From positions 1 through 64,000 of IMG/VR virus record IMGVR_UViG_3300035698_020241: 64,000 bases of DNA; one strand, 5' to 3'. This DNA is from a virus. Below are positions 4,455-60,932 of this stretch, piece after piece (the stretch's first letter is position 1; the number at the start of each line of letters is the position of its first letter). A model generated the notes under the pieces. The model did no database searches and was not told the DNA's origin. It saw only the letters and a list, made by a program, of their open reading frames with translations. The position numbers were made by a program, and so were the translations under genes.

Positions 4455-6074
4455 GTGAAAAGAGCAATAGTAACAATTTGTATAGGTGAAGATTATAAGA
4501 AGATTTCAAAAATAACACATCCTAGTATAAAAAAGTATGTAAAAAAATTAGGTAAAGATGTTGAATTCATAGTTATTAATGAGGATTATAAAAAAGAAAT
4601 AATATCTCCTCATTGGGTAAAATTTGAATTATTTAACCTACTAAAATTATATGACAGAATAATTTATTTAGATACAGATTTAATAATAAGGGAAGATTGT
4701 CCTGATTTATTTAAATTAGTACCAGAAGGTATGATTGGAATGTATGAAGAAGGTAAGCATGTTAGTAGAATATCTTCTTTAACCGAGGCTTCACTTGCAT
4801 ATGAACAAAAAATGAAAGTGAAACAAATAGATGCTAGATATTACAATACAGGTGTAATGGTATTATCAAAACAGCATAAAAGCCTTTTTGTCCCTGTTGA
4901 ACAAAAAAAGTTAGGCATGTACGAACAAGGATATTTAAATCTAAAAATAAACAATGATAAAATAAAGAATATATACGAATTAACCTACCATTTTAACAGA
5001 ATGGAAATGATAGATTCTCTAACAGGAGAAAATAGATTAGCATCCTATATTATTCATTATGCAGGACTTATTGATTCATATGGTATAGATAATGTATTAA
5101 AAAATATGGAAGGTGATTTAGAACAATGGTCGAAAGATAGTCCAGAGTTTAAATATAAAAGAAATATTATGATTAAAGTTGGTGGCGGTCTTGGTGATCA
5201 AGTATGTGCAGAACCAGTAATTAGATATTGTTTAGATAGATATTGGAAAGATGATAATGTAGAAATTTTAAGTGATTGGCCAGAACTATTTAACCATCTT
5301 GGTTGTAAAGTGTATGATAATGAAACCTATAAAATATCCAGAGATAATAATGCAAGATATATAGGTCACACACTTCCATTAGATGACGCTGTTTTATGGG
5401 GAACCTGTTCACAAACAACAATGCATCAAACAGATTTTGCCGCATTAAGTATTTTGAAAAGATATCTACCTGATGCTGAAAAAGAAATACAACTACACTA
5501 TAATGATCAAGATTTAGATTTTGTAAAAAAATTATATGATGTTGATTTAAAAACACTTATTCTTATACATCCAGGTAAAGGTTGGAAAAGTAAAACATTT
5601 CCCGTAACCTGGTGGAAAAATGTTATAGATGGACTAACTAAAAATGGTTATAATGTTGGTATAATTGGAAAAACTAACCCAGATGATGATGGTCAAGGTT
5701 ATGTTGATACTGATATTGACGGAACTTATGATTTTAGAAATATGTTATCTATAAAACAACTTATAACTATAATAAGTCAAGCACCAGTTCTTATTAGTAA
5801 TGATTCTTCTCCTGTTCATATTGCAGGAGCATTTGATAACTGGATTGTATTAATACCGACCTGTAAACATCCTGATTATATCTTACCTACAAGAAAAAGA
5901 TCCAAATATTATAAATCAGTTGCCTTATATAAAAAACTAACCATTGACTCTTATGATAGTTCACCAACATCATTGACATATCATGGTGAAATAAATAAAG
6001 TAGAAGGCGATATTGAAACATACTTACCTGATCCAAATTTCGTAATAAAAAATGTCGCAATCATGATGAAATAG
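4455..6074 (+). CDS. Two-domain glycosyltransferase (GT8-like plus GT9-like)
   Basis: The 539-residue product has two catalytic-looking halves. Residues about 1-230 resemble glycogenin or GT8 enzymes, with the metal-binding motif in DRIIYLDTDLIIRED (DxD). Residues about 240-539 resemble heptosyltransferase/GT9 proteins, with GGGLGDQV near the start, HPGKGWKSKTFP, and NDSSPVHIAGAF near the end. The start is GTG with AGGGAG upstream and its own promoter. Likely substrates are nucleotide sugars; the acceptor (host surface glycan, virion protein or modified DNA base) is unknown. A fusion of GT-A and GT-B folds in one chain is uncommon. Confidence 0.75.
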   Translation: MKRAIVTICIGEDYKKISKITHPSIKKYVKKLGKDVEFIVINEDYKKEIISPHWVKFELFNLLKLYDRIIYLDTDLIIREDCPDLFKLVPEGMIGMYEEGKHVSRISSLTEASLAYEQKMKVKQIDARYYNTGVMVLSKQHKSLFVPVEQKKLGMYEQGYLNLKINNDKIKNIYELTYHFNRMEMIDSLTGENRLASYIIHYAGLIDSYGIDNVLKNMEGDLEQWSKDSPEFKYKRNIMIKVGGGLGDQVCAEPVIRYCLDRYWKDDNVEILSDWPELFNHLGCKVYDNETYKISRDNNARYIGHTLPLDDAVLWGTCSQTTMHQTDFAALSILKRYLPDAEKEIQLHYNDQDLDFVKKLYDVDLKTLILIHPGKGWKSKTFPVTWWKNVIDGLTKNGYNVGIIGKTNPDDDGQGYVDTDIDGTYDFRNMLSIKQLITIISQAPVLISNDSSPVHIAGAFDNWIVLIPTCKHPDYILPTRKRSKYYKSVALYKKLTIDSYDSSPTSLTYHGEINKVEGDIETYLPDPNFVIKNVAIMMK

Positions 6075-11652: not shown

Positions 11653-11865
11653 ATGAAAATAGAGTTAAAAGATGTGAAATTTAAAAACTTCCTCAGTTTT
11701 GGAAGTAAGTGGCAAGAGGTTAAACTTAGACACGGTGTGAATTTAGTCTTAGGATATGATGAAGAAAACGATAAAAGTAATGGTAGTGGTAAGTGTGTTG
11801 CGTTTAATACCCTTATCAATATTGAATGTTCTAAGGAAATTAGGAAAATTTTAGAAGGCATGTAA
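11653..11865 (+). CDS. gp46-N: gp46/SbcC-like ATPase, N-terminal piece with split-intein N-half
   Basis: Residues 1-47 are the start of a Rad50/SbcC/gp46 ATPase: ELKDVKFKNFLSFG, then the Walker A motif SNGSGK. It breaks off at the Lys of the P-loop. Residue 48 is Cys and begins CVAFNTLINIE, an intein block A. About 23 intein residues follow, then a TAA. The rest of the intein and of gp46 is encoded from 12899. On its own the fragment cannot be an ATPase. I infer protein trans-splicing joining Lys47 to the Ser that follows the intein C-half. This is the shorter (atypical) kind of N-half. Confidence 0.88.
   Translation: MKIELKDVKFKNFLSFGSKWQEVKLRHGVNLVLGYDEENDKSNGSGKCVAFNTLINIECSKEIRKILEGM
11794..11862 (+). 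other. Split intein, N-terminal half (about 23 residues)
   Basis: It begins with Cys (TGT 11794-11796) directly after the P-loop GSGK and carries block A only (CVAFNTLINIE). It ends at the stop after RKILEGM. Block B is absent here and is found in the other half. Confidence 0.85.
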
Positions 11866-11909
11866 ACAACCTTGGAATATAAAATAAACGGGAGTGGAAT
11901 ATAAAAGTA

Positions 11910-12923
11910 ATGATATGTAAATATCCTAATTGCAATAATGAAACACATACTTATAAAGGAAAGAAAACACCAGATTTATTCTGTAAAAAACACTGTACAA
12001 TTCAGAATCTAATTACTTTTCAAATTAGATTTGGAGAGAAAGAAGGAAAAAATAGATATTCTAAAATGTTAGAAAAAAGACGGAGATCAAAAACTCTTGA
12101 AGGTATGGTTGAAAAATATGGAGAAATTAATGGTAAAAAGAGATGGGAAGATTATTGTTATAAGCAAGGAAAAAGAAATACTCTTGAAGGTCAGATTGAA
12201 TATTGGGGTAAAGAATTAGGAATTAAAAAATATAAAGAACGATGTTATAATTGTGGTAAACCAGTAAGAATAGATTATTTTCTTGAAAAAACAAATGGAA
12301 ATAGAGAATTAGCAGAACAAATGTTGAAAGAAAGGCAAGCAACATTCTCAAAAGAAAAATGTATAGAAAAACATGGGAAAATAAAAGGATTAAAAGTTTG
12401 GAAAGATAGACAAGATAGATGGCAAAAAACTTTAAAATCTAAATCACCTGAGGAAATAGAAAGGATAAACAAAAAGAAAGCCATAACAAAAGAAAATCTT
12501 ATAAAAATATATGGTGAAGTAATTGGTAAACAAAAACACAATGAATGGTTGAAAAAAATAACAAACTGTTTACCAAATTCTATTTCAAAAGCATCCAAAG
12601 AATTTTTTATAGATATAGAAAAAGAATTATCTATAAAAATATTAAAAGAACAAGTAATTGGAAATTATATTGTTGACGGAAAATTCAATAATATTATAAT
12701 AGAATTTTATGGTGATTATTGGCATTGTAACCCAAAAATATATAAAGATGATTATTATCATGCTAAATTAAAAATGTTTGCTAAACAAAAATGGAAAATA
12801 GATAGAAAAAGAGAAAAAACATTAAAAGAGTTAGGATATGATGTATTAGTTGTATGGGAAAATAATTGGACGAATAATAAGGAGAATATTATAAAAAAAT
12901 GTTGTGTGAAATTGGTAAAATAG
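11910..12923 (+). CDS. Vsr-like (EDxHD) homing endonuclease nested between the gp46 pieces
   Basis: The 337-residue protein has an N-terminal Cys/His cluster (CKYPNCNNETH, CKKHC). It then has repeats of the type EKYGEINGKKRWEDYCYKQ and EYWGKELGIKKYKE that are frequent in phage homing endonucleases, and a C-terminal nuclease with IIIEFYGDYWHCNPKIY and DVLVVWENNW. That C-terminal pattern is the very-short-patch-repair-type EDxHD fold. It lies in the gap between the two intein halves, starting 44 bp after the first piece and overlapping the second by 25 bp. It should target the uninterrupted gp46 P-loop sequence, so both invasion and protection follow from its position. Confidence 0.88.
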   Translation: MICKYPNCNNETHTYKGKKTPDLFCKKHCTIQNLITFQIRFGEKEGKNRYSKMLEKRRRSKTLEGMVEKYGEINGKKRWEDYCYKQGKRNTLEGQIEYWGKELGIKKYKERCYNCGKPVRIDYFLEKTNGNRELAEQMLKERQATFSKEKCIEKHGKIKGLKVWKDRQDRWQKTLKSKSPEEIERINKKKAITKENLIKIYGEVIGKQKHNEWLKKITNCLPNSISKASKEFFIDIEKELSIKILKEQVIGNYIVDGKFNNIIIEFYGDYWHCNPKIYKDDYYHAKLKMFAKQKWKIDRKREKTLKELGYDVLVVWENNWTNNKENIIKKCCVKLVK

Positions 12924-13264
12924 TAAAATTATACAAAGAACATCCAGAATATATTGGTAAAGTTTTTGTTGATACTCCTTATGGTAAAAAAAGAATACTT
13001 TATGCTGACATTGTTGAAAAAAACACAGAAGTATATAAACTGAAAACAGATATATATGAACTTATAGGTTCACCACAACATAGAGTAGAATGTAATAACA
13101 AGTGGATGTATTTAAAAGATATTTCCAATGGTGATTTTGTTAGCACAATAAATGGTAAAAAGAAAGTATTGTTATGTCAAAAAGAAAATGATTTATATGA
13201 TTTATATGATATACAAGTTGAAGATGTAGAACAATATTATTCTAATGGAATACTTTCTCATAAT
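12899..13264 (+). other. Split intein, C-terminal half (about 122 residues)
   Basis: It contains block B (GSPQH, with the conserved His) and the C-terminal His-Asn followed by Ser (codon 13265-13267). The length split of about 23 plus 122 places the break between blocks A and B, not at the usual endonuclease site between B and F. Confidence 0.85.
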
Positions 13265-15337
13265 TCATCTTTCCTTGAAACTATACCTTTTGCACTATTT
13301 GGTAAAGTTCATAAGGATATAAAAAAAGACCAAATAGTTAATTGGAAAAATAGAAAAGGTTGTGAGGTTCACCTAACATTTACGAAAGGTGAATCAGAAT
13401 ATAGAGTATATAGAGGTATCAAACCTGATAAGTTTGAAATATATAAAGACGAAGTATTGGTTGATAAGCCGGCACATGTCAAGGATTATCAGTTAATACT
13501 TGATGGTATTATAGGCTTAAATTACAACGTCTTCATGAGCCTTGTCCATTCTAATATCAATTCATCTGCACCAATTCTGGCGATGAAAAAACCCGATAAA
13601 CGAAAATTTATAGAGAAATCGTTTGGTCTTGAGTTATATACAAAACTTCATGAGATTTGTAATGAAAAACTCAAGAAAGGTAATGAGAAGATAAAAGAAA
13701 TGGAATTCTCTACACTTAAAAACAATGAGGCTGTAAAATTAGCCGAGGAAAGAGTCGCATCTATTAATAGAAAATTAAAGGAAATGGGATCATCAGTAAT
13801 TGAATTAAAAGATGCAGAAGAAAAACTGAAGGAACTTATTGATGGTGATGAAGACTGGGACGAACAACTTGATGCTGCAAGTACTGAACTTAAAATAGTT
13901 GATGAGGCTGATTCACATCATTCATGGCTTGTAAAAGCTATAGAAGGTAAAATGGCTCTTACAACTCAAAAGATAAAAATGATGATTAACCAAGTTCAAA
14001 GTTTAAAATCTGATATAAGTAAAACAGAAGACATAGAGACCAAAAAAAGGAAGATAACAGCCATTCTGAAATTATGGGGTGATGAAGATATAATATCAGA
14101 AAAAATAGGGTTAACAAAAGCTCTTATCAATGACTATAATATAAGAATAGATCATCATTTAGAAAATACACAAAAACTACAAATTGATGTTACAAGTTGT
14201 AAAAAGAATGTCAAAAAGATACAACACCAATGGGGTGTATTGAAAATAGATAAAAAATGTCCAACATGTAATACGAATGTTGAAGGTACTGACATTCTAA
14301 AGAACTTGGAAAGAGATATGAAAGAAGATCAGGATTTTGCGGATAGACAAACTGAACAAATTAAAAAAATAGTTGCAGATGTTGATGAAATAAGAAAAAG
14401 TCATAAAACGAATAGTGGACTTTTGAAAGAGTTGGAAGATGTAAAGATGCAATACTTATTACTTGAAAAAGAGGTAACAAGTAGTAATTATGATGAACTT
14501 ATAGAAAGATTAGATATATTAAATAATAAAATAACTCGTACACGGTCTGTTGCTGATAAGTTGAGGACTAAAAGGGATGAAATTGATGCTTATAGGGAGA
14601 AGTCTATAAGTAGAATTGAGATTTTGAAGGAAGAGAAAAATGATTTTCTTAATAAGATCAATAATATATCAGATGCTCAAAAACAAGTAGATAAATTAGA
14701 TGAGAAGGTATCACTTGAAGTAGATAACAAATCAACATATGTTACACTGGTTAAAAAAGATGAGAAAAATATAAAAAGGTTACTATCTGAAAATAGAAGT
14801 TTTATTGCAAAGGTTAGTAAGTTGTCCGATCTCAAGGATTATATTAATTTTATAAAAACATGTTGCGGTGATGATAAGGTAAAACAATATGCAATAAGTT
14901 CAATAATGCCGTATCTTAACAAACAAACGAACCATTATTTATCAGATGTAGGCCATAATTTCTGGGTAAAACTAGATAAATGGTTAGAAGCCCGGATAGA
15001 AGGACCTGGTATTATTAATGGTAGTTATGGTTCATTAAGTGGAGGTGAAGGACGAGTTATAGATTTATCACTTCAATTTGCCTTTCTTGATATTGCGAGA
15101 CTTAGAGCAGGTGTATTTCCATCTATATTAATTTTTGATGAAATACTTGACAGTAGTATTGATGTTCAAGGGTTACAAAAAATTATAGATATCGTTAAAA
15201 TTAAACAGAAAGAAGATAATTCACAAGTATTCATAATTAGTCATAGGCAAGAAATAGATGAACTTGAGGTTGATGATGTTTATTTTGTTACAAAAAGTGA
15301 AGGATATTCAAGTATTGAAATCAAGGAATCTATATAA
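12899..15337 (+). CDS. gp46-C: gp46/SbcC-like ATPase, C-terminal piece preceded by split-intein C-half
   Basis: Residues 1-122 are the intein C-half, with block B-like LIGSPQHRVE and blocks F/G in LYDIQVEDVEQYYSNG then ILSHN. Ser123 starts the extein: SSFLETIPFALFGK continues the P-loop. The rest has long coiled coils, a Rad50 zinc hook CPTC (about residue 456), the ABC signature SLSGGEGR (about 712) and Walker B ILIFDEI (about 743). After trans-splicing the mature protein would be about 737 residues. With gp47 it resects DNA ends. ATG 12899 has AAGGAG 14 bp upstream, a rather long spacing, so the exact start is less sure. Confidence 0.88.
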   Translation: MLCEIGKIVKLYKEHPEYIGKVFVDTPYGKKRILYADIVEKNTEVYKLKTDIYELIGSPQHRVECNNKWMYLKDISNGDFVSTINGKKKVLLCQKENDLYDLYDIQVEDVEQYYSNGILSHNSSFLETIPFALFGKVHKDIKKDQIVNWKNRKGCEVHLTFTKGESEYRVYRGIKPDKFEIYKDEVLVDKPAHVKDYQLILDGIIGLNYNVFMSLVHSNINSSAPILAMKKPDKRKFIEKSFGLELYTKLHEICNEKLKKGNEKIKEMEFSTLKNNEAVKLAEERVASINRKLKEMGSSVIELKDAEEKLKELIDGDEDWDEQLDAASTELKIVDEADSHHSWLVKAIEGKMALTTQKIKMMINQVQSLKSDISKTEDIETKKRKITAILKLWGDEDIISEKIGLTKALINDYNIRIDHHLENTQKLQIDVTSCKKNVKKIQHQWGVLKIDKKCPTCNTNVEGTDILKNLERDMKEDQDFADRQTEQIKKIVADVDEIRKSHKTNSGLLKELEDVKMQYLLLEKEVTSSNYDELIERLDILNNKITRTRSVADKLRTKRDEIDAYREKSISRIEILKEEKNDFLNKINNISDAQKQVDKLDEKVSLEVDNKSTYVTLVKKDEKNIKRLLSENRSFIAKVSKLSDLKDYINFIKTCCGDDKVKQYAISSIMPYLNKQTNHYLSDVGHNFWVKLDKWLEARIEGPGIINGSYGSLSGGEGRVIDLSLQFAFLDIARLRAGVFPSILIFDEILDSSIDVQGLQKIIDIVKIKQKEDNSQVFIISHRQEIDELEVDDVYFVTKSEGYSSIEIKESI

Positions 15338-16090
15338 GTGAAAAACTTTGGTATAATATATAAGGTAACTAATATTCTTAATGGTAAAATTTATATAGGA
15401 CAGACTATTAGAGGTTTAGAAGTAAGGGGGCAATGTCATATATCTGAATCAAAAAATGGTAATACATATTTTAATAGAGCTTTAAGAAAATATTGTCCGG
15501 AAAACTTTGAATGGGAAGTTATTGAAGAATGTTATTCAAAGGAAGATTTAGATTTAGCCGAAGAATGGTATATTAGATATTATAACACTTTCGGATCAAA
15601 TGGATATAATTTGACGTTTGGTGGAGAGGGAACTATAGGTTGGAAACCTTCAGAAGAGACAAGGAAAAAGATTAGTAAATCCATGTGTGGTGAGAATAAT
15701 CCTAACTATGGTAAGGAACGTTCTGAAGAGTATAGAAAAAAATTAAGTGATACATTAAAAGGTAGAAAACACTCAGAAGGACATAAGAGAAAGTTAAGTG
15801 AAGTTAATAAAGGTAAAAAACTTTCAGAAGAGACAAGGAAAAAGATGGGCGAATCGCGTAAAGGTGAAAAAAATGTAAGAGCAAAGAAGAGGGTTGTTAT
15901 AAGACCCGATGGTAGAAAATATTTTTGTCACGGAACATTTACTAAACTTTGTAAAGAATTTAGTAAAGAGTTTAAAAAGAATATGTTAAGATTTTTGATT
16001 GATGTTAATAAGTCCGGGAAAGAAATAAATGGTTGGGTGGTTTTTGATGTTGATGATACACCTACAAATGAAAATATTATCATATATTAG
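15338..16090 (+). CDS. GIY-YIG homing endonuclease with NUMOD3 repeats
   Basis: The 250-residue product starts with GIIYKVTNILNGKIYIGQT, a GIY-YIG nuclease start, followed by EEWYIRYYNT and GYNLTFGGEG. Residues about 100-180 hold repeats such as SEETRKKISKSMCGENNPNYG and SEGHKRKLSE, the NUMOD3 DNA-binding type. The C-terminal part is probably a helix-turn-helix. It begins with GTG directly on the stop of gp46, a typical place for a free-standing homing endonuclease. It is clearly related to the leftward genes at 23294-24001 and 48642-49448. Confidence 0.88.
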   Translation: MKNFGIIYKVTNILNGKIYIGQTIRGLEVRGQCHISESKNGNTYFNRALRKYCPENFEWEVIEECYSKEDLDLAEEWYIRYYNTFGSNGYNLTFGGEGTIGWKPSEETRKKISKSMCGENNPNYGKERSEEYRKKLSDTLKGRKHSEGHKRKLSEVNKGKKLSEETRKKMGESRKGEKNVRAKKRVVIRPDGRKYFCHGTFTKLCKEFSKEFKKNMLRFLIDVNKSGKEINGWVVFDVDDTPTNENIIIY

Positions 16091-22670: not shown

Positions 22671-23322
22671 TAAGAACCCGAAAGTATTAGTAGTAACACC
22701 TTTATTAAAAGGTCATAAAATTTCAAAAGATACAAAGAAAACAATTAAAAGAAATACAACTCCCATTGTATGGATAGCCAGTGAAGGAAATAATAATATA
22801 CCTATAAACATACAAAATGGTATCAATTTTTGGAAAAAAGAAGGTAACGAATTACCACCTTATCTTTTACCATTGGATAATGATATAATTTTAGGTCGTC
22901 ATATAATAGATAGACTTGTAAAGAAATTGGATAGGACTGGTGATGAAGTTGGATATGCATATGCATCATTTGAATATAAGGGTCATATAAATAAAAGATT
23001 CCCAGCAGTACCTTTTGAAGCACAAAATTTAGTTAATGCTAATTATATTAGTAGTAATTCTTTGATTAAGATAGGTCATTTAATTGCGGTAGGCGGTATG
23101 GTTACCGATGAGAAATACAAGCGACTTCTTGACTATTGCATGTGGTTAAGATTTCTATATTTTGGCGTGGTTGGTGTACCTTGTCCAGAGGCTTCATTTG
23201 TAGCCGTTTCATCTAAAGATGATATATCAGCAGGCACATCAGAAGATTACCAGTTGAAATATCAAAGAGTTAAAAAGGATTTTATTGAACCAATTATAGA
23301 GAAATACAGCGCCAATTCTTAG
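22651..23322 (+). CDS. GT-A family glycosyltransferase-like protein
   Basis: 223 residues with an N-terminal VLVVTPLLKG strand, then IASEGNNNIP and YLLPLDNDIILGRHII, a DxD-like metal motif of GT-A folds. It is reminiscent of GT2-type enzymes. The start is TTG with GAAGGAG ten bases upstream. It is the last rightward gene; its 3' end overlaps the convergent GIY-YIG gene by 29 bp. No membrane segment. Confidence 0.6.
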   Translation: MRVIRSDKNPKVLVVTPLLKGHKISKDTKKTIKRNTTPIVWIASEGNNNIPINIQNGINFWKKEGNELPPYLLPLDNDIILGRHIIDRLVKKLDRTGDEVGYAYASFEYKGHINKRFPAVPFEAQNLVNANYISSNSLIKIGHLIAVGGMVTDEKYKRLLDYCMWLRFLYFGVVGVPCPEASFVAVSSKDDISAGTSEDYQLKYQRVKKDFIEPIIEKYSANS

Positions 23323-24001
23323 ATTTACCATTTCTGAGCATACATTGGTAAGATATACTTCTTCGTTTGCAAAATTCTTGAATTGTTGAACTATTAACAA
23401 TGAACTTTTTACGAAGGGGAGATGTAAATTCATAATATCTTCTACCTTTTTCACTAATTTTCTTTTTTGCATCGTCAGTATGCGTTTTACCAAAGAATGG
23501 ATGATTTTTACCAGATAATTTTTTACTAATCAATTCCCTATGTTTTTCATCTTTCCACATCTTCTTAGATGCTTTACTTATTTTTCTTTTCGCATCATCT
23601 GTATGTGTTTTACCTTTCATATGGTGGTTATTTGATACTGTAAAACTTATTTTCTTTCTAACTTCCGGTCTCGTTGAAGGATTTATAAATCCTTCAGGTC
23701 TTTTATATCCCAACACACCTTCTCCACCAAATGTTAAATTATATCCACCATTTTTACAATATGTATTATAATATCTAATGTACCATTCTTCTGCTAAATC
23801 TAATTCTTCTTTGGAATTACATTCTTCTATAATTTCCCATTCAAAATTTTCCTTGCCATATTTTCTCAAAGAATTATGAAAATATGTTGATGATGTCTTA
23901 GAAAGTCTTATATGTGTAGCCTTTCTATATTCAAATTTTTGTGTTGTTTGGCCTATATAGGACTTTCCAGTTATAATATTTTTGGATTTATAAATTAACA
24001 T
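23294..24001 (-). CDS. GIY-YIG homing endonuclease with NUMOD3 repeats
   Basis: 235 residues beginning MLIYKSKNIITGKSYIGQT, with EEWYIRYYNT and GYNLTFGGEG as in the rightward copy at 15338, and NUMOD3-like KGKTHTDDAKRKISKASKK repeated twice. It is the last gene of the leftward arm and its 3' end overlaps the rightward glycosyltransferase by 29 bp. It begins 5 bp after the preceding stop. Confidence 0.87.
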   Translation of the reverse strand: MLIYKSKNIITGKSYIGQTTQKFEYRKATHIRLSKTSSTYFHNSLRKYGKENFEWEIIEECNSKEELDLAEEWYIRYYNTYCKNGGYNLTFGGEGVLGYKRPEGFINPSTRPEVRKKISFTVSNNHHMKGKTHTDDAKRKISKASKKMWKDEKHRELISKKLSGKNHPFFGKTHTDDAKKKISEKGRRYYEFTSPLRKKFIVNSSTIQEFCKRRSISYQCMLRNGKSKNWRCISL

Positions 24002-48641: not shown

Positions 48642-49448
48642 TTACATATTTTCAAGTCGTTCACACTTGAAACCTTTATACTGTTTTATTCTTCCACTAA
48701 CTATATGTTGAAAATTACTTTGATATAATTTTATACCAGTATTTTCTTCATAATCTCTACAAAAACTAGTTAAACAATTTGTAAAAATTTCTTTACCATC
48801 TGGATGAATAATTTTCCACTTAATATTTTTCAAACCTTTATTATAATTAGGATTATTCTCTCCAATCTTACCATACATAGGATTACTTTTCCCTTTATTA
48901 TGTATTTTTCCTTTCTCACTCAAAATTATTTTCGTTTCAATAGAATGTTTTTTCCCATACATACCATTATTTTTACCACTAAATTTTTTTCTATATGAAC
49001 CACTCTCATAAAGAACTTTCATTTTTTTCTGGAAATCTTCATCCTGTAATAATTTCTTACGTGCTTTACTAATATTTTTCCTATGTTCTTTTGAAAATTT
49101 TCTACCTATTAATGAATTTGATAATTTATTTCTCTGTTCCTTACTGGCCTTCCAACCATAATGTCCCTCACCACCCCAAGTCATATTATATCCATTTTCC
49201 GATATATGACTGTGATATTGTTTAATGTAATGAAACTCCATCTCATCCAATTCTTCTTTGGAATTACATTCTTCAACTATAGTCCATTCAAAAACATCTT
49301 CATTATATTTTTTAAGAGCCCTATGAAAATAAAAGTTAGTATTCTTAGATTTCCAATAATGTTCCTTTATTCTATTATCTAAATCAAATTTTGTTTGTCC
49401 TATATAACATTTTGAATTTATTTTATTTTTAACTTTATAAATTATCAT
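48642..49448 (-). CDS. GIY-YIG homing endonuclease with NUMOD repeats
   Basis: 268 residues beginning MIIYKVKNKINSKCYIGQT, with ALKKYNEDVFEWTIVEECN, YNMTWGGEGHYGW and NUMOD3-like SKEHRKNISKARKK repeats. The C-terminus has a conserved 'IIHPDGKEIFTNCLTSFCRD' element shared in type with the copies at 15338 and 23294. It lies directly downstream of the gp32 gene, with a T4-type late promoter motif and a dedicated terminator. Confidence 0.88.
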   Translation of the reverse strand: MIIYKVKNKINSKCYIGQTKFDLDNRIKEHYWKSKNTNFYFHRALKKYNEDVFEWTIVEECNSKEELDEMEFHYIKQYHSHISENGYNMTWGGEGHYGWKASKEQRNKLSNSLIGRKFSKEHRKNISKARKKLLQDEDFQKKMKVLYESGSYRKKFSGKNNGMYGKKHSIETKIILSEKGKIHNKGKSNPMYGKIGENNPNYNKGLKNIKWKIIHPDGKEIFTNCLTSFCRDYEENTGIKLYQSNFQHIVSGRIKQYKGFKCERLENM

Positions 49449-56727: not shown

Positions 56728-57135
56728 TTATAACAGAGTTAAATCTCCTGTTATAACATCTATTTTTTTATTATTTCCTGGTCCCACAGCCAAGCATGTA
56801 ATGGTAGGCACACCTTTAAACTCTGTAAGTCCTGCATCTTTTATAAGTGCATGCGGCACTTCATGAAATAAACATTCATCCCTAAGTGTGAGTAATTCCA
56901 ACTCACTTTTCACATATACAACTATCTTTGTATATCTATCTCTTAACCATAACCTCATTGGATCATCATAATCCATTGTAAGTTTCAAATGCATTTGGCC
57001 TTCAAAATTTGAACATCGCATTCTATCAAGCATAACCCTCATAGAGGCATGTGCCACTTGAGCACACATTTTACCTTTCCTCATATTAAGGTCCTTTCTT
57101 ACAACTATAACTTGTTTTACATTGCCATCTTCCAT
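56728..57135 (-). CDS. pth2: Peptidyl-tRNA hydrolase, Pth2 type
   Basis: 135 residues. VKQVIVVRKDLNMRKGKMCA, then QVAHASMR, KIVVYVKSELELLTLRDE, and HALIKDAGLTEFKGVPT with TCLAVGPGN follow the archaeal/eukaryotic Pth2 family along its length. The enzyme frees tRNA from peptidyl-tRNA that drops off ribosomes. With phage tRNAs and an RNA ligase in the same arm it may help keep the tRNA pool working in infected cells. Confidence 0.87.
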   Translation of the reverse strand: MEDGNVKQVIVVRKDLNMRKGKMCAQVAHASMRVMLDRMRCSNFEGQMHLKLTMDYDDPMRLWLRDRYTKIVVYVKSELELLTLRDECLFHEVPHALIKDAGLTEFKGVPTITCLAVGPGNNKKIDVITGDLTLL

Positions 57136-57171: not shown

Positions 57172-57960
57172 TTAAGTATCTAATATCACCATAAGTTGTT
57201 CGTATGATATAATATCAATACCATATTTCCTCGCCTTTTTGGACTTACCACTCTGACTATCAGGATCATCAGTTACCAACATATTAACATCTTTACTTAT
57301 ACCCTTTACGGTTCCACCAAGAGATTCTATTTTCTTTTTAATAGCAGGTCTACTCATGTTTCCCTTACCTGTAAGAGTGAATTTCTTACCCTGTAATTTC
57401 TGTCCTACCTCAAACTTCAAACCTTGTTCAAGAAGAAATGTATATAATGGATAAAATTTACCACGATTTATAACAATGGATTCTGCTATAACCTCACCTA
57501 TACCATCTATATCCTCAAAGAAATCTTCATCATCTGAGAAAAATTGTAACATCATATCTTTAGGTGATATATCAGAATATGTATCACATATTGACTTACC
57601 AACCGATCTACCAACATTAGGCATTCCAAATGCTGATATCAGTTTATTTGGAGTAGTTCGTAATGTTCCTTGAATCTCATTAACGATCTGTTCTCCTCGT
57701 TTCATTCCGAAACCTTCTATCGTTGCAATTTCAAACTCATCAATCTCATACGCTTTCTGTATAGTGTTAATATTTAATTTCTTGAGGGTTTTTTCAGTTA
57801 TATACTCTGCTCCAAGGCGTACCAAAAAGTGTTCAACTTCTTTATAGGCTTTAGCAAGACAATCTACATTATTACATACCATATCAACACCTCTTGGAAC
57901 AGCACGGCCTCCACATGATGGACAAAATTCCGGAACATAATTAAAACCATTCATTTTCAT
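57172..57960 (-). CDS. ligA-C: NAD-dependent DNA ligase, C-terminal piece (Zn finger, HhH, BRCT)
   Basis: 262 residues. FCPSCGGRAVPRG and CNNVDCLAK form the four-Cys zinc finger. The helix-hairpin-helix set follows (IATIEGFGMKRGEQIV, ISAFGMPNVGRSVGKS, DIDGIGEVIAESI). The BRCT domain is LQGKKFTLTGKGNMSRPAIK to the end. It has everything of LigA after the OB fold and nothing before it. The ATG at 57960 has GAAAGGAT upstream and overlaps the stop of the GIY-YIG remnant (ATGA). It should act with ligA-N. Confidence 0.88.
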   Translation of the reverse strand: MKMNGFNYVPEFCPSCGGRAVPRGVDMVCNNVDCLAKAYKEVEHFLVRLGAEYITEKTLKKLNINTIQKAYEIDEFEIATIEGFGMKRGEQIVNEIQGTLRTTPNKLISAFGMPNVGRSVGKSICDTYSDISPKDMMLQFFSDDEDFFEDIDGIGEVIAESIVINRGKFYPLYTFLLEQGLKFEVGQKLQGKKFTLTGKGNMSRPAIKKKIESLGGTVKGISKDVNMLVTDDPDSQSGKSKKARKYGIDIISYEQLMVILDT

Positions 57961-58091
57961 ATCCTTTCACACATGTATCCCTTATTATTAGCATTACATT
58001 TATGGCCTTTTATTCTATCATTTAATGTTCTTATTGTTTGTCCTACGTAAGACTTTCCTGTAATTTTGTTTATTGATTTATATATTATCAT
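57957..58091 (-). pseudogene. GIY-YIG homing endonuclease remnant between ligase pieces
   Basis: A 44-residue ORF: MIIYKSINKITGKSYVGQT then RTLNDRIKGHK, followed soon by a stop. It corresponds only to the first strand pair of the GIY-YIG domain seen in the intact genes here and lacks the catalytic Glu and DNA-binding parts. It starts on the stop of ligA-N and ends on the start of ligA-C, both by ATGA, so it may now serve as a translational bridge. Confidence 0.82.
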
Positions 58092-59125
58092 TTATAAACC
58101 TTTGAAATGAAAGGTATTACATCACCAGATCTCTGGATATCAATCATTGATCCTTTACATATTTTATTCTCTTGGATGTATTTTGCATTATGACCTGTGG
58201 CCCTTTGTATACTAACACCGTTTATTATAATAGTTTTAACAATAACTGTTGGAATTATTCTTCCAGTTCGTGAGGTATTCCATTCAACATCTATAACCTC
58301 TGTTTTAACACCTTTTTCATTTACTTTGAACGCTATTTTATTTTCAGGATAAAGAACATCCTCTCTTACATAATTGTCAGGTGTAATAACAAGACCATCA
58401 ATATCTTTCAGGTGAGATTTACACATCGTCAAGAAGTCTGTTAAAGATTCTATAACATCTGGAGAATTTGACATATGCATAATATTAGGAGTTTTCAATC
58501 CCATACTTTGCATCAATGTGAATTTGCTTATTTCACTATCATGTTCAACAGAACCCCCATCAAGTATCTCATAGAAGTATGGAACTATATATTTTGCATT
58601 CTTTATACCATCTTTATTCAGTATACCTGCAGTGCCATTTCTACGAGTTTTAAATCCAAGTTTCTTATGTGTGTCTCCTATCAACATAGCTTCACATCTG
58701 AAGGAAAAGTTATGTTTAAGATTTTTTATAACAGGACAGAACATCTTTGCCTTATCTGTTATATCACTACCCTGATAGCCATCACCTCTGGTTGTAGCAG
58801 AAATAACCTTACCGTCTTTAAATCCATATGTAACCATGAAACTTACACCATCAAGTTTTTCTGATATACAATGTGGTCCTGGGTGTTTCTCAATCCACTT
58901 TTCTATTGTATCCGTCTTTTTTTTATGAAGGCTGCCGAGTACAAAAGGTAGGTCTACCTTTTTACCAGAAATAGGAGCACCAATATCATCAAAGTAAGGA
59001 TGGTCAGGTCTTATAGCCCTTGCCTTATCTTTCAAATCATCATAATCGGCGTCTGTTATTTCAACATCACCGTTATAATAGGCATCATCGTGTTCCTTTA
59101 AGGTTCTTATCATCAAATCAAACAT
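58088..59125 (-). CDS. ligA-N: NAD-dependent DNA ligase, N-terminal piece (Ia, adenylation, OB)
   Basis: 345 residues. The NMN-binding Ia domain has YYNGDVEITDADYDDLKDKA. The adenylated Lys is K90 in ISEKLDGVS. GDGYQGSDIT, FRCEAMLIG and IDGLVITPDN are later nucleotidyltransferase motifs, and IDIQRSGDVIPFISKVYK ends the OB fold. The protein stops exactly where LigA continues into the zinc finger. It can probably self-adenylate; full nick sealing would need the C-terminal piece. Confidence 0.9.
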   Translation of the reverse strand: MFDLMIRTLKEHDDAYYNGDVEITDADYDDLKDKARAIRPDHPYFDDIGAPISGKKVDLPFVLGSLHKKKTDTIEKWIEKHPGPHCISEKLDGVSFMVTYGFKDGKVISATTRGDGYQGSDITDKAKMFCPVIKNLKHNFSFRCEAMLIGDTHKKLGFKTRRNGTAGILNKDGIKNAKYIVPYFYEILDGGSVEHDSEISKFTLMQSMGLKTPNIMHMSNSPDVIESLTDFLTMCKSHLKDIDGLVITPDNYVREDVLYPENKIAFKVNEKGVKTEVIDVEWNTSRTGRIIPTVIVKTIIINGVSIQRATGHNAKYIQENKICKGSMIDIQRSGDVIPFISKVYK

Positions 59126-60355: not shown

Positions 60356-60433
60356 TGGTAGCGAAGGTGGGAGTCGAACCCACAAAGACGCTTACTTTTG
60401 AGGCAAGCCGATATACCAGTTCTCTACTTCGCC
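60356..60433 (-). tRNA. tRNA with anticodon CAA (Leu by anticodon)
   Basis: 78 nt including an encoded CCA. The acceptor stem GGCGAAG/CTTCGCT has seven pairs (one G-U), the T arm GTGGG-TTCGACT-CCCAC is perfect, and the anticodon loop is CTCAAAA. The anticodon reads CAA, for Leu UUG codons. The variable region is only about seven nt, much shorter than in normal Leu tRNAs, so its charging identity is uncertain. Confidence 0.8.
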
Positions 60434-60856: not shown

Positions 60857-60932
60857 TGGAGCGGGTACTTAGGAATCGAACCTAAAATCTCTAGTCGGGT
60901 AGACCATTGTAATACCATTATACCATACCTGC
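60857..60932 (-). tRNA. Probable tRNA-Gly, irregular
   Basis: 76 nt including CCA. The ends GCAGGTA and TACCCGC followed by TCCA resemble Gly tRNAs, but there is an A-C mismatch at the third acceptor pair and one extra base beside the T stem (TTAGG-TTCGATT-CCTAA). D arm TGGTATAATGGTATTAC is Gly/Asp-like. The anticodon loop CTACCCG gives ACC by the U33 rule; CCC is the other reading. It may be partly decayed. Confidence 0.62.

Follow-up and report, generated by a model that had tools for sequence, protein, structure and literature searches.

A NAD+-dependent DNA ligase gene of a virus, probably split in two by a GIY-YIG homing gene that survives as a relic

The ligase locus and its genes

The window, that is, the whole stretch of 64,000 nucleotides that was analysed, corresponds to bases 1-64000 of the IMG/VR record IMGVR_UViG_3300035698_020241 (126,240 bases; 31.7% G+C), which also encodes a gp32-like SSB, a T4-type RNase H and an SbcC/gp46-like gene. 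In this window, the NAD+-dependent DNA ligase (LigA) is encoded in two pieces, LigA-A and LigA-B, with the relic of a GIY-YIG homing endonuclease between them (Table 1). A sequence-only reading had described three ORFs joined by ATGA overlaps, and both coordinates and sequence agree with that description: the ORFs are on the minus strand, and the two overlaps are of 4 nt each. Its division of the enzyme is likewise borne out: (i) in the A part, Pfam finds the adenylation domain and the OB fold; and (ii) in the B part, it finds the HhH and BRCT domains, and the sequence also has the four zinc-finger cysteines.

Table 1. Features of the split ligase locus and the intact endonuclease gene of the genome most akin to the relic.
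Feature	Position	Strand	Basis
LigA-A: domain Ia, adenylation domain with KLDG (K90), OB fold	58088..59125	-	PF01653 + PF03120
44-codon GIY-YIG homing endonuclease relic	57957..58091	-	PF01541, E 3.8e-5
LigA-B: Cys4 zinc finger, HhH, BRCT	57172..57960	-	Pfam HhH + BRCT; phmmer; Foldseek
ATGA overlap of the LigA-A stop with the relic start	58088..58091	-	sequence
ATGA overlap of the relic stop with the first ATG of LigA-B	57957..57960	-	sequence
Shine-Dalgarno GAAAGGA of LigA-B, within the last relic codons (E R I)	57962..57968	-	sequence
Intact GIY-YIG/NUMOD3 homing-type endonuclease	48642..49448	-	closest intact relative of the relic within this genome

The open frames of LigA-A and LigA-B extend over 345 and 262 codons, respectively, in an AT-rich genome, and the start codon of each has a Shine-Dalgarno site. 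LigA-A ends in GDVIPFISKVYK, followed by the stop codon. The true start of LigA-B is probably the second ATG, at 57954 (MNGFNYVPEFCPSC), 8 nt from the Shine-Dalgarno sequence. As for the surroundings, tRNA-Leu(CAA) (60356-60433) and tRNA-Gly(ACC) (60857-60932) (minus strand) lie directly upstream of the ligase gene cluster, and a peptidyl-tRNA hydrolase 2 (PTH2) gene (56728-57135, minus strand), not there in the syntenic loci L001 and L014, adjoins LigA-B.

Identity and conservation of the two halves

Together, the two halves contain the full set of LigA domains: Ia, adenylation (KxDG), OB, Cys4 zinc finger, HhH and BRCT. In PHROGs, A and B cover positions 13-381 and 391-650, respectively, of one ligase family of 656 positions (phrog_3869). 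LigA-A aligns to E. coli LigA (2owo) across 85-342, while phmmer and Foldseek match LigA-B with the C-terminal half of LigA and with chain B of PDB 9hu3 ("DNA ligase subunit B"). Furthermore, structure prediction (pLDDT 81 for A and 85 for B) gives models that match those of LigA enzymes as well as both 9hu3 chains.

Both halves are conserved. All the strictly invariant (29/29) and nearly invariant (40/40) ligase positions are kept in the window, the zinc-finger cysteines of LigA-B (C13, C16, C29 and C34) are conserved among relatives, and the branch leading to the window has a length of 0.74, versus 0.67-0.84 for the fused ligases of L118, L014 and L123. No match to an ATP-dependent DNA ligase (PF01068) was found in the record, although IMG/VR classes it as a possible fragment and a further ligase may thus be encoded elsewhere.

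The GIY-YIG relic

The 44-residue ORF had been taken for the remnant of a GIY-YIG enzyme, an identification that is upheld by a Pfam match above the curated cut-off and by a kin gene in the same genome. Along 112 nt, it shares 70% DNA identity with the beginning of the intact endonuclease gene of Table 1, so the match is not due to chance. It keeps the N-terminal motif of the GIY-YIG family (IIY...YVG) together with R26 and H30, aligned with intact kin. Nevertheless, it has 44 codons versus 211-268 in the intact kin of the same genome, and the middle is missing: given that the complete catalytic domain and the DNA-binding part are not present, it must be considered a relic. Four full-size GIY-YIG genes are present in the record, three of them in the window (15338-16090, 23294-24001 and 48642-49448) and one at record bases 65893-66528; at least three of the four carry NUMOD3 motifs.

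In terms of its make-up, the relic consists of about 36 N-terminal residues fused in frame to the last eight or so (KGYMCERI), and the latter fit the C-terminal motif of the endonuclease family (KGFKCKKL, RGYWCERI and others). Using a weight matrix for this motif built from other genomes, KGYMCERI ranks second among the 154,390 8-mers in all six frames of the record; only the C-terminus of the intact endonuclease at 48642-49448 scores higher. Since the relic matches the homing endonuclease family at both ends, it is best read as a gene that lost its middle by an in-frame deletion and retained the two ends, a deletion deduced from the 8-residue C-terminal match. A simple C-terminal truncation was rejected in favour of this reading.

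Other ways of interrupting a gene were also considered. A plain frameshift in an intact ligA was ruled out, as the bases between the halves are endonuclease-like, and a single-base assembly slip is excluded as the cause of the split because the 130-odd bases in between are not ligase sequence. No known Rfam family of self-splicing introns was found within the window, nor any Pfam intein domain in LigA-A or LigA-B. A DNA search of the phage collection gave no match.

Elsewhere in the window (11653-15337, plus strand), the SbcC/gp46-like gene is broken at its P-loop (between NGSGK and CVAFNTLINIE). A Vsr-like endonuclease ORF (11910-12923) lies within it and its second half starts with an intein C-terminal splicing region (TIGR01443); this locus has the appearance of a gene fractured around a split intein. 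Intein-like sequences were also observed in other loci: (i) the glycosyltransferase ORF of L014 (7599-9818; 739 aa) has a LAGLIDADG intein, while its orthologues in the window and L001 (373 aa) are without it; and (ii) a clamp-loader-like gene of L002 (2123-3563) is apparently interrupted by an intein-like stretch across two ORFs.

Fused relatives and the linker

A comparison with uninterrupted ligA genes in relatives had been proposed together with the first description of the split. The syntenic loci L001 and L014 have a single fused ligA (620 and 605 residues; about 50% identical to that of the window) within a shared gene order: HD protein, ligase, zinc-ribbon protein, HNH and glycosyltransferase. 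Two further fused, syntenic kin were found on MAG contigs. Besides, in a profile scan of the ligase clade of the window, which covered 80 related viral ligA loci, 77 genes were continuous through the OB-zinc finger linker. As the syntenic relatives are fused and 77 of the 80 surveyed genes are continuous, the ancestral state was an intact gene.

The linker of the window comprises seven residues past the "IP" of the OB fold (motif GDVIP) in LigA-A and 12 before the first zinc cysteine in LigA-B, compared to 16-18 residues in most intact relatives. The earlier claim that the cut falls in this linker without loss of residues therefore stands.

Other split loci

The remaining three loci of the survey (L133, L124 and L120) are split in the linker, and a fifth split locus (L039) was found by a separate endonuclease search. 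At all the split loci, the A half stops 6-9 residues past the "IP" of the OB fold, and each of the five gaps in this ligase family contains GIY-YIG sequence. Apart from the window, the following situations can be distinguished: (i) L133 has an intact, antisense GIY-YIG gene (283 aa) in the gap; (ii) L039 has the A half, an intact, antisense GIY-YIG gene (287 aa; 50% identity with its L133 counterpart), four small ORFs and the B half, in this order; (iii) L124 has an antisense GIY-YIG gene with a single frameshift, located in a stretch of A close to its beginning; and (iv) L120 has a shortened, antisense GIY-YIG remnant with multiple frameshifts. The inserts are of different types, with NUMOD3 in L124 and an I-HmuI-like NUMOD in L133 and L039.

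The ligase halves are also kept intact at these four loci: 29 of the 29 strictly invariant positions are present in L120 and 28 of the 29 in L124; L133 misses seven, six of which are explained by the contig end. In L133, the OB-end motif (IIGDVIPQVFI, followed by a stop codon) occurs once more at 1646-1724, in the space that separates the antisense endonuclease from LigA-B; it looks as though the insertion had duplicated the target flank.

An intact, sense-oriented endonuclease at the ligA site was not found in close relatives, the inserts of the four other splits being antisense. Queries with the B half and with the ligA-site endonucleases returned known loci only, and a search of the genome collection gave fused kin and L133 again, with no new split.

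The ligase tree takes in four of the five split genes (L039 was left out) and places them apart from each other. The window is grouped with the fused genes of L118, L014, L123, L001 and L122 (98/97); L133 pairs with the fused L127 (100/99); L124 is grouped with the fused L139, L125 and L132 (98/97); and L120 stands alone. By parsimony, the four split genes require four changes on the tree. A single clade of the four splits is rejected (p-AU 1.8e-7), and so is the grouping of the window with L124 (p 0.002). The splits are thus several and independent, and re-fusion many times to the exact linker appears less likely than repeated insertion. To judge from these loci, the OB-zinc finger linker is a recurrent GIY-YIG target in this ligase family. 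The same enzyme being cut at the same joint in at least four other viral loci, selfish genes appear capable of making a two-piece enzyme out of a one-piece one repeatedly.

Promoter-like sites at the antisense inserts

Where the endonuclease is antisense, LigA-B is not translationally coupled via the insert. At three of these loci, sigma-70-like promoters lie antisense to the first codons of the endonuclease (IIYKxTNxVN) and are directed toward LigA-B: (i) in L133, a 12/12 site (TTGACA-17-TATAAT; 1618-1646), the strongest in the stretch; (ii) in L120, an 11/12 site (5313-5341), also the strongest in the stretch; and (iii) in L124, a 10/12 site (5632-5660), one of two tied. Such sites are likewise present in some GIY-YIG genes elsewhere (L215 and L223).

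Against a background of 55 endonucleases, the antisense promoter signal looked very strong. In a background of 101, eight others reached at least 10/12, with one at 12/12, and the link is hence only suggestive; the hypergeometric estimate (p ~0.003) refers to three of four ligA-site genes that were chosen after the fact. The idea of a specific adaptation was dropped after this larger background.

A wider generalisation would make the linker a general homing site in NAD+-dependent ligases, and insertion the usual route to phage heterodimers, those of T5 and PR1 included, with the insert supplying the expression signals of the B half. We put it forward tentatively, as a rather doubtful extension. 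According to it, the tail of a sense insert would provide the Shine-Dalgarno sequence of LigA-B, as in the window, and the first codons of an antisense insert would provide its sigma-70 promoter, for which the sites above are suggestive.

Origin of the split

Insertion of a homing gene followed by its decay, already put forward in the sequence-only reading, is strongly favoured by the intact ancestor, by the match of the relic at both ends and by the intact and decayed GIY-YIG genes in the same linker of the other splits. Very probably, then, a GIY-YIG homing gene split ligA and decayed to the present relic, leaving two halves, presumably coupled in translation, that are likely to work as a heterodimer. 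The present analysis goes beyond that reading in three respects: the internal deletion of the relic with retention of both ends, the repeated hits at the site and the previously known split of the T5-like ligases.

We infer the following order of events: (i) a free-standing GIY-YIG gene, in sense orientation, would have inserted into the OB-zinc finger linker of the NAD+-dependent ligase; (ii) the insertion would have divided ligA into A and B, with all the ligase residues kept; and (iii) the middle of the endonuclease would then have been lost by in-frame deletion and, with it, the ability to cut. The retained start of the relic overlaps the stop of LigA-A, and its retained last codons hold the ribosome-binding site of LigA-B and overlap its start. 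Given these overlaps at both ends, A, relic and B would be translated as a coupled chain: ribosomes ending LigA-A would restart on the relic at the first ATGA, and those ending the relic would restart at LigA-B, helped by the Shine-Dalgarno sequence. Both halves would then pair as in the PR1 enzyme, LigA-A being adenylated by NAD+ and LigA-B bringing the zinc finger, HhH and BRCT domains for DNA binding. In this respect, a truncated LigN formed by domain Ia, adenylation domain and OB fold is adenylated by NAD+ just as well as the full-length protein (PMC1684257). The conserved halves and the solved structures of heterodimers cut at the same joint make it plausible that the ligase has two subunits whose translation is coupled, and in all likelihood A and B come together as a functional heterodimeric NAD+ ligase.

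The opposite order, in which the gene was split first, as in T5-like phages, and the GIY-YIG gene entered the gap later, must be weighed. The T5-like phages inspected have the same split without an endonuclease between the genes, and such an order has been discussed for gene 43 of phage 25 (PMC2988022). However, the nearest relatives of the window are fused and syntenic, the split genes sit on separate branches, GIY-YIG sequence occupies every gap in the family and, in the window, A and B are both tied to the relic by the ATGA overlaps, which leave no spare intergenic DNA, all of which makes this order improbable.

Genes cut in two often die, and the ligase might be a pseudogene destroyed by the insertion, in a phage that uses the ligase of its host. 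Yet both halves have stayed open while the endonuclease between them lost most of its length; the full set of invariant positions and both Shine-Dalgarno sites persist, and the halves are intact at the four other split loci too. A dead ligase is accordingly a little less credible still than a split that came first.

It is also conceivable that the locus is an assembly artefact, the relic being a collapsed copy of a full endonuclease or A and B having been misjoined, as the record is metagenomic and its four other GIY-YIG genes could mislead an assembler. Nevertheless, the reading frame and both overlaps are preserved, the gene order is that of the relatives and, with only 70% DNA identity between the relic and its nearest kin in the genome, collapse of a repeat is unlikely; an artefact is very improbable. 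Lastly, the 44 residues might be the product of a small gene under selection (a linker or a regulator), in agreement with its own Shine-Dalgarno site and its retained open frame, but both of its ends match homing endonucleases, the rest of the catalytic domain is gone and no such peptide occurs at the other split loci, and this is the least probable explanation of all.

Insertion and decay of a homing gene, the preferred explanation, offers a cause for heterodimeric NAD+ ligases. These loci provide a natural series at one spot of one enzyme, from the fused gene to an intact insert, a frameshifted insert and an in-frame relic, and they make gene fission testable, since the activity of fused enzymes can be set against that of split relatives about 50% identical to them.

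Comparison with known systems

Heterodimeric NAD ligases are already known. T5 (LigA/LigB) and Providencia phage PR1 (PDB 9hu3 and 9i5i) have the same enzyme, divided likewise between the OB fold and the zinc finger, and the end points are nearly identical to those of the window: A ends in GGVIPRIVERVYD, followed by the stop codon, and B starts with MKIEIPTNCPSC. The entry 9hu3 is the "PR1 phage heterodimeric DNA ligase" on nicked DNA; a literature search found no publication on the PR1 ligase. A match to the T5-like B subunit is present in 914 phage records. Nevertheless, the T5-like ligases belong to another clade, the window being grouped with the fused L001 and L014 (100/100) and not with the T5-like A subunits, and a common origin with the T5-type split is unsupported by the tree. 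Moreover, in the T5-like phages inspected the gap contains small ORFs, a terminator or an annotated promoter (both annotated promoter and terminator in PR1), with no endonuclease, in contrast to the overlapping genes of the window. The T5 split may still have an older homing origin.

It is also known that homing genes can split phage enzymes without killing them. In Aeromonas phage Aeh1 (nrdA/mobE) and T4 (gene 60/mobA), a homing gene splits an essential phage enzyme and the two polypeptides reassemble; the split nrdA of Aeh1 retains function (PMC2988022). Those cases involve HNH (Mob) endonucleases and other enzymes, whereas a GIY-YIG gene is found here in ligA; unlike them, ligA presents repeated, independent hits at one linker in several stages of decay. 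In Aeromonas phage 25 (43A/43B), a GIY-YIG (Seg) gene adjoins a split DNA polymerase whose halves co-purify and are active, but whether that split was due to the endonuclease is not clear (PMC2988022). The causal order is much clearer for ligA, where there are both fused relatives and split ones that have the endonuclease gene in the gap.

A mobile endonuclease has likewise broken the gene in the fractured genes that have split inteins and Vsr-like endonucleases (Dassa 2009), and the SbcC-like gene of this phage is a candidate of that kind; unlike these cases, the break in ligA is without an intein and the halves remain separate. Several features of "genes in pieces" are found here: a fused ancestor, an endonuclease gene in the break and both parts intact. 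What is new, in comparison with all these systems, is the invasion of one ligA linker by GIY-YIG genes repeatedly, in both orientations and in several stages of decay.
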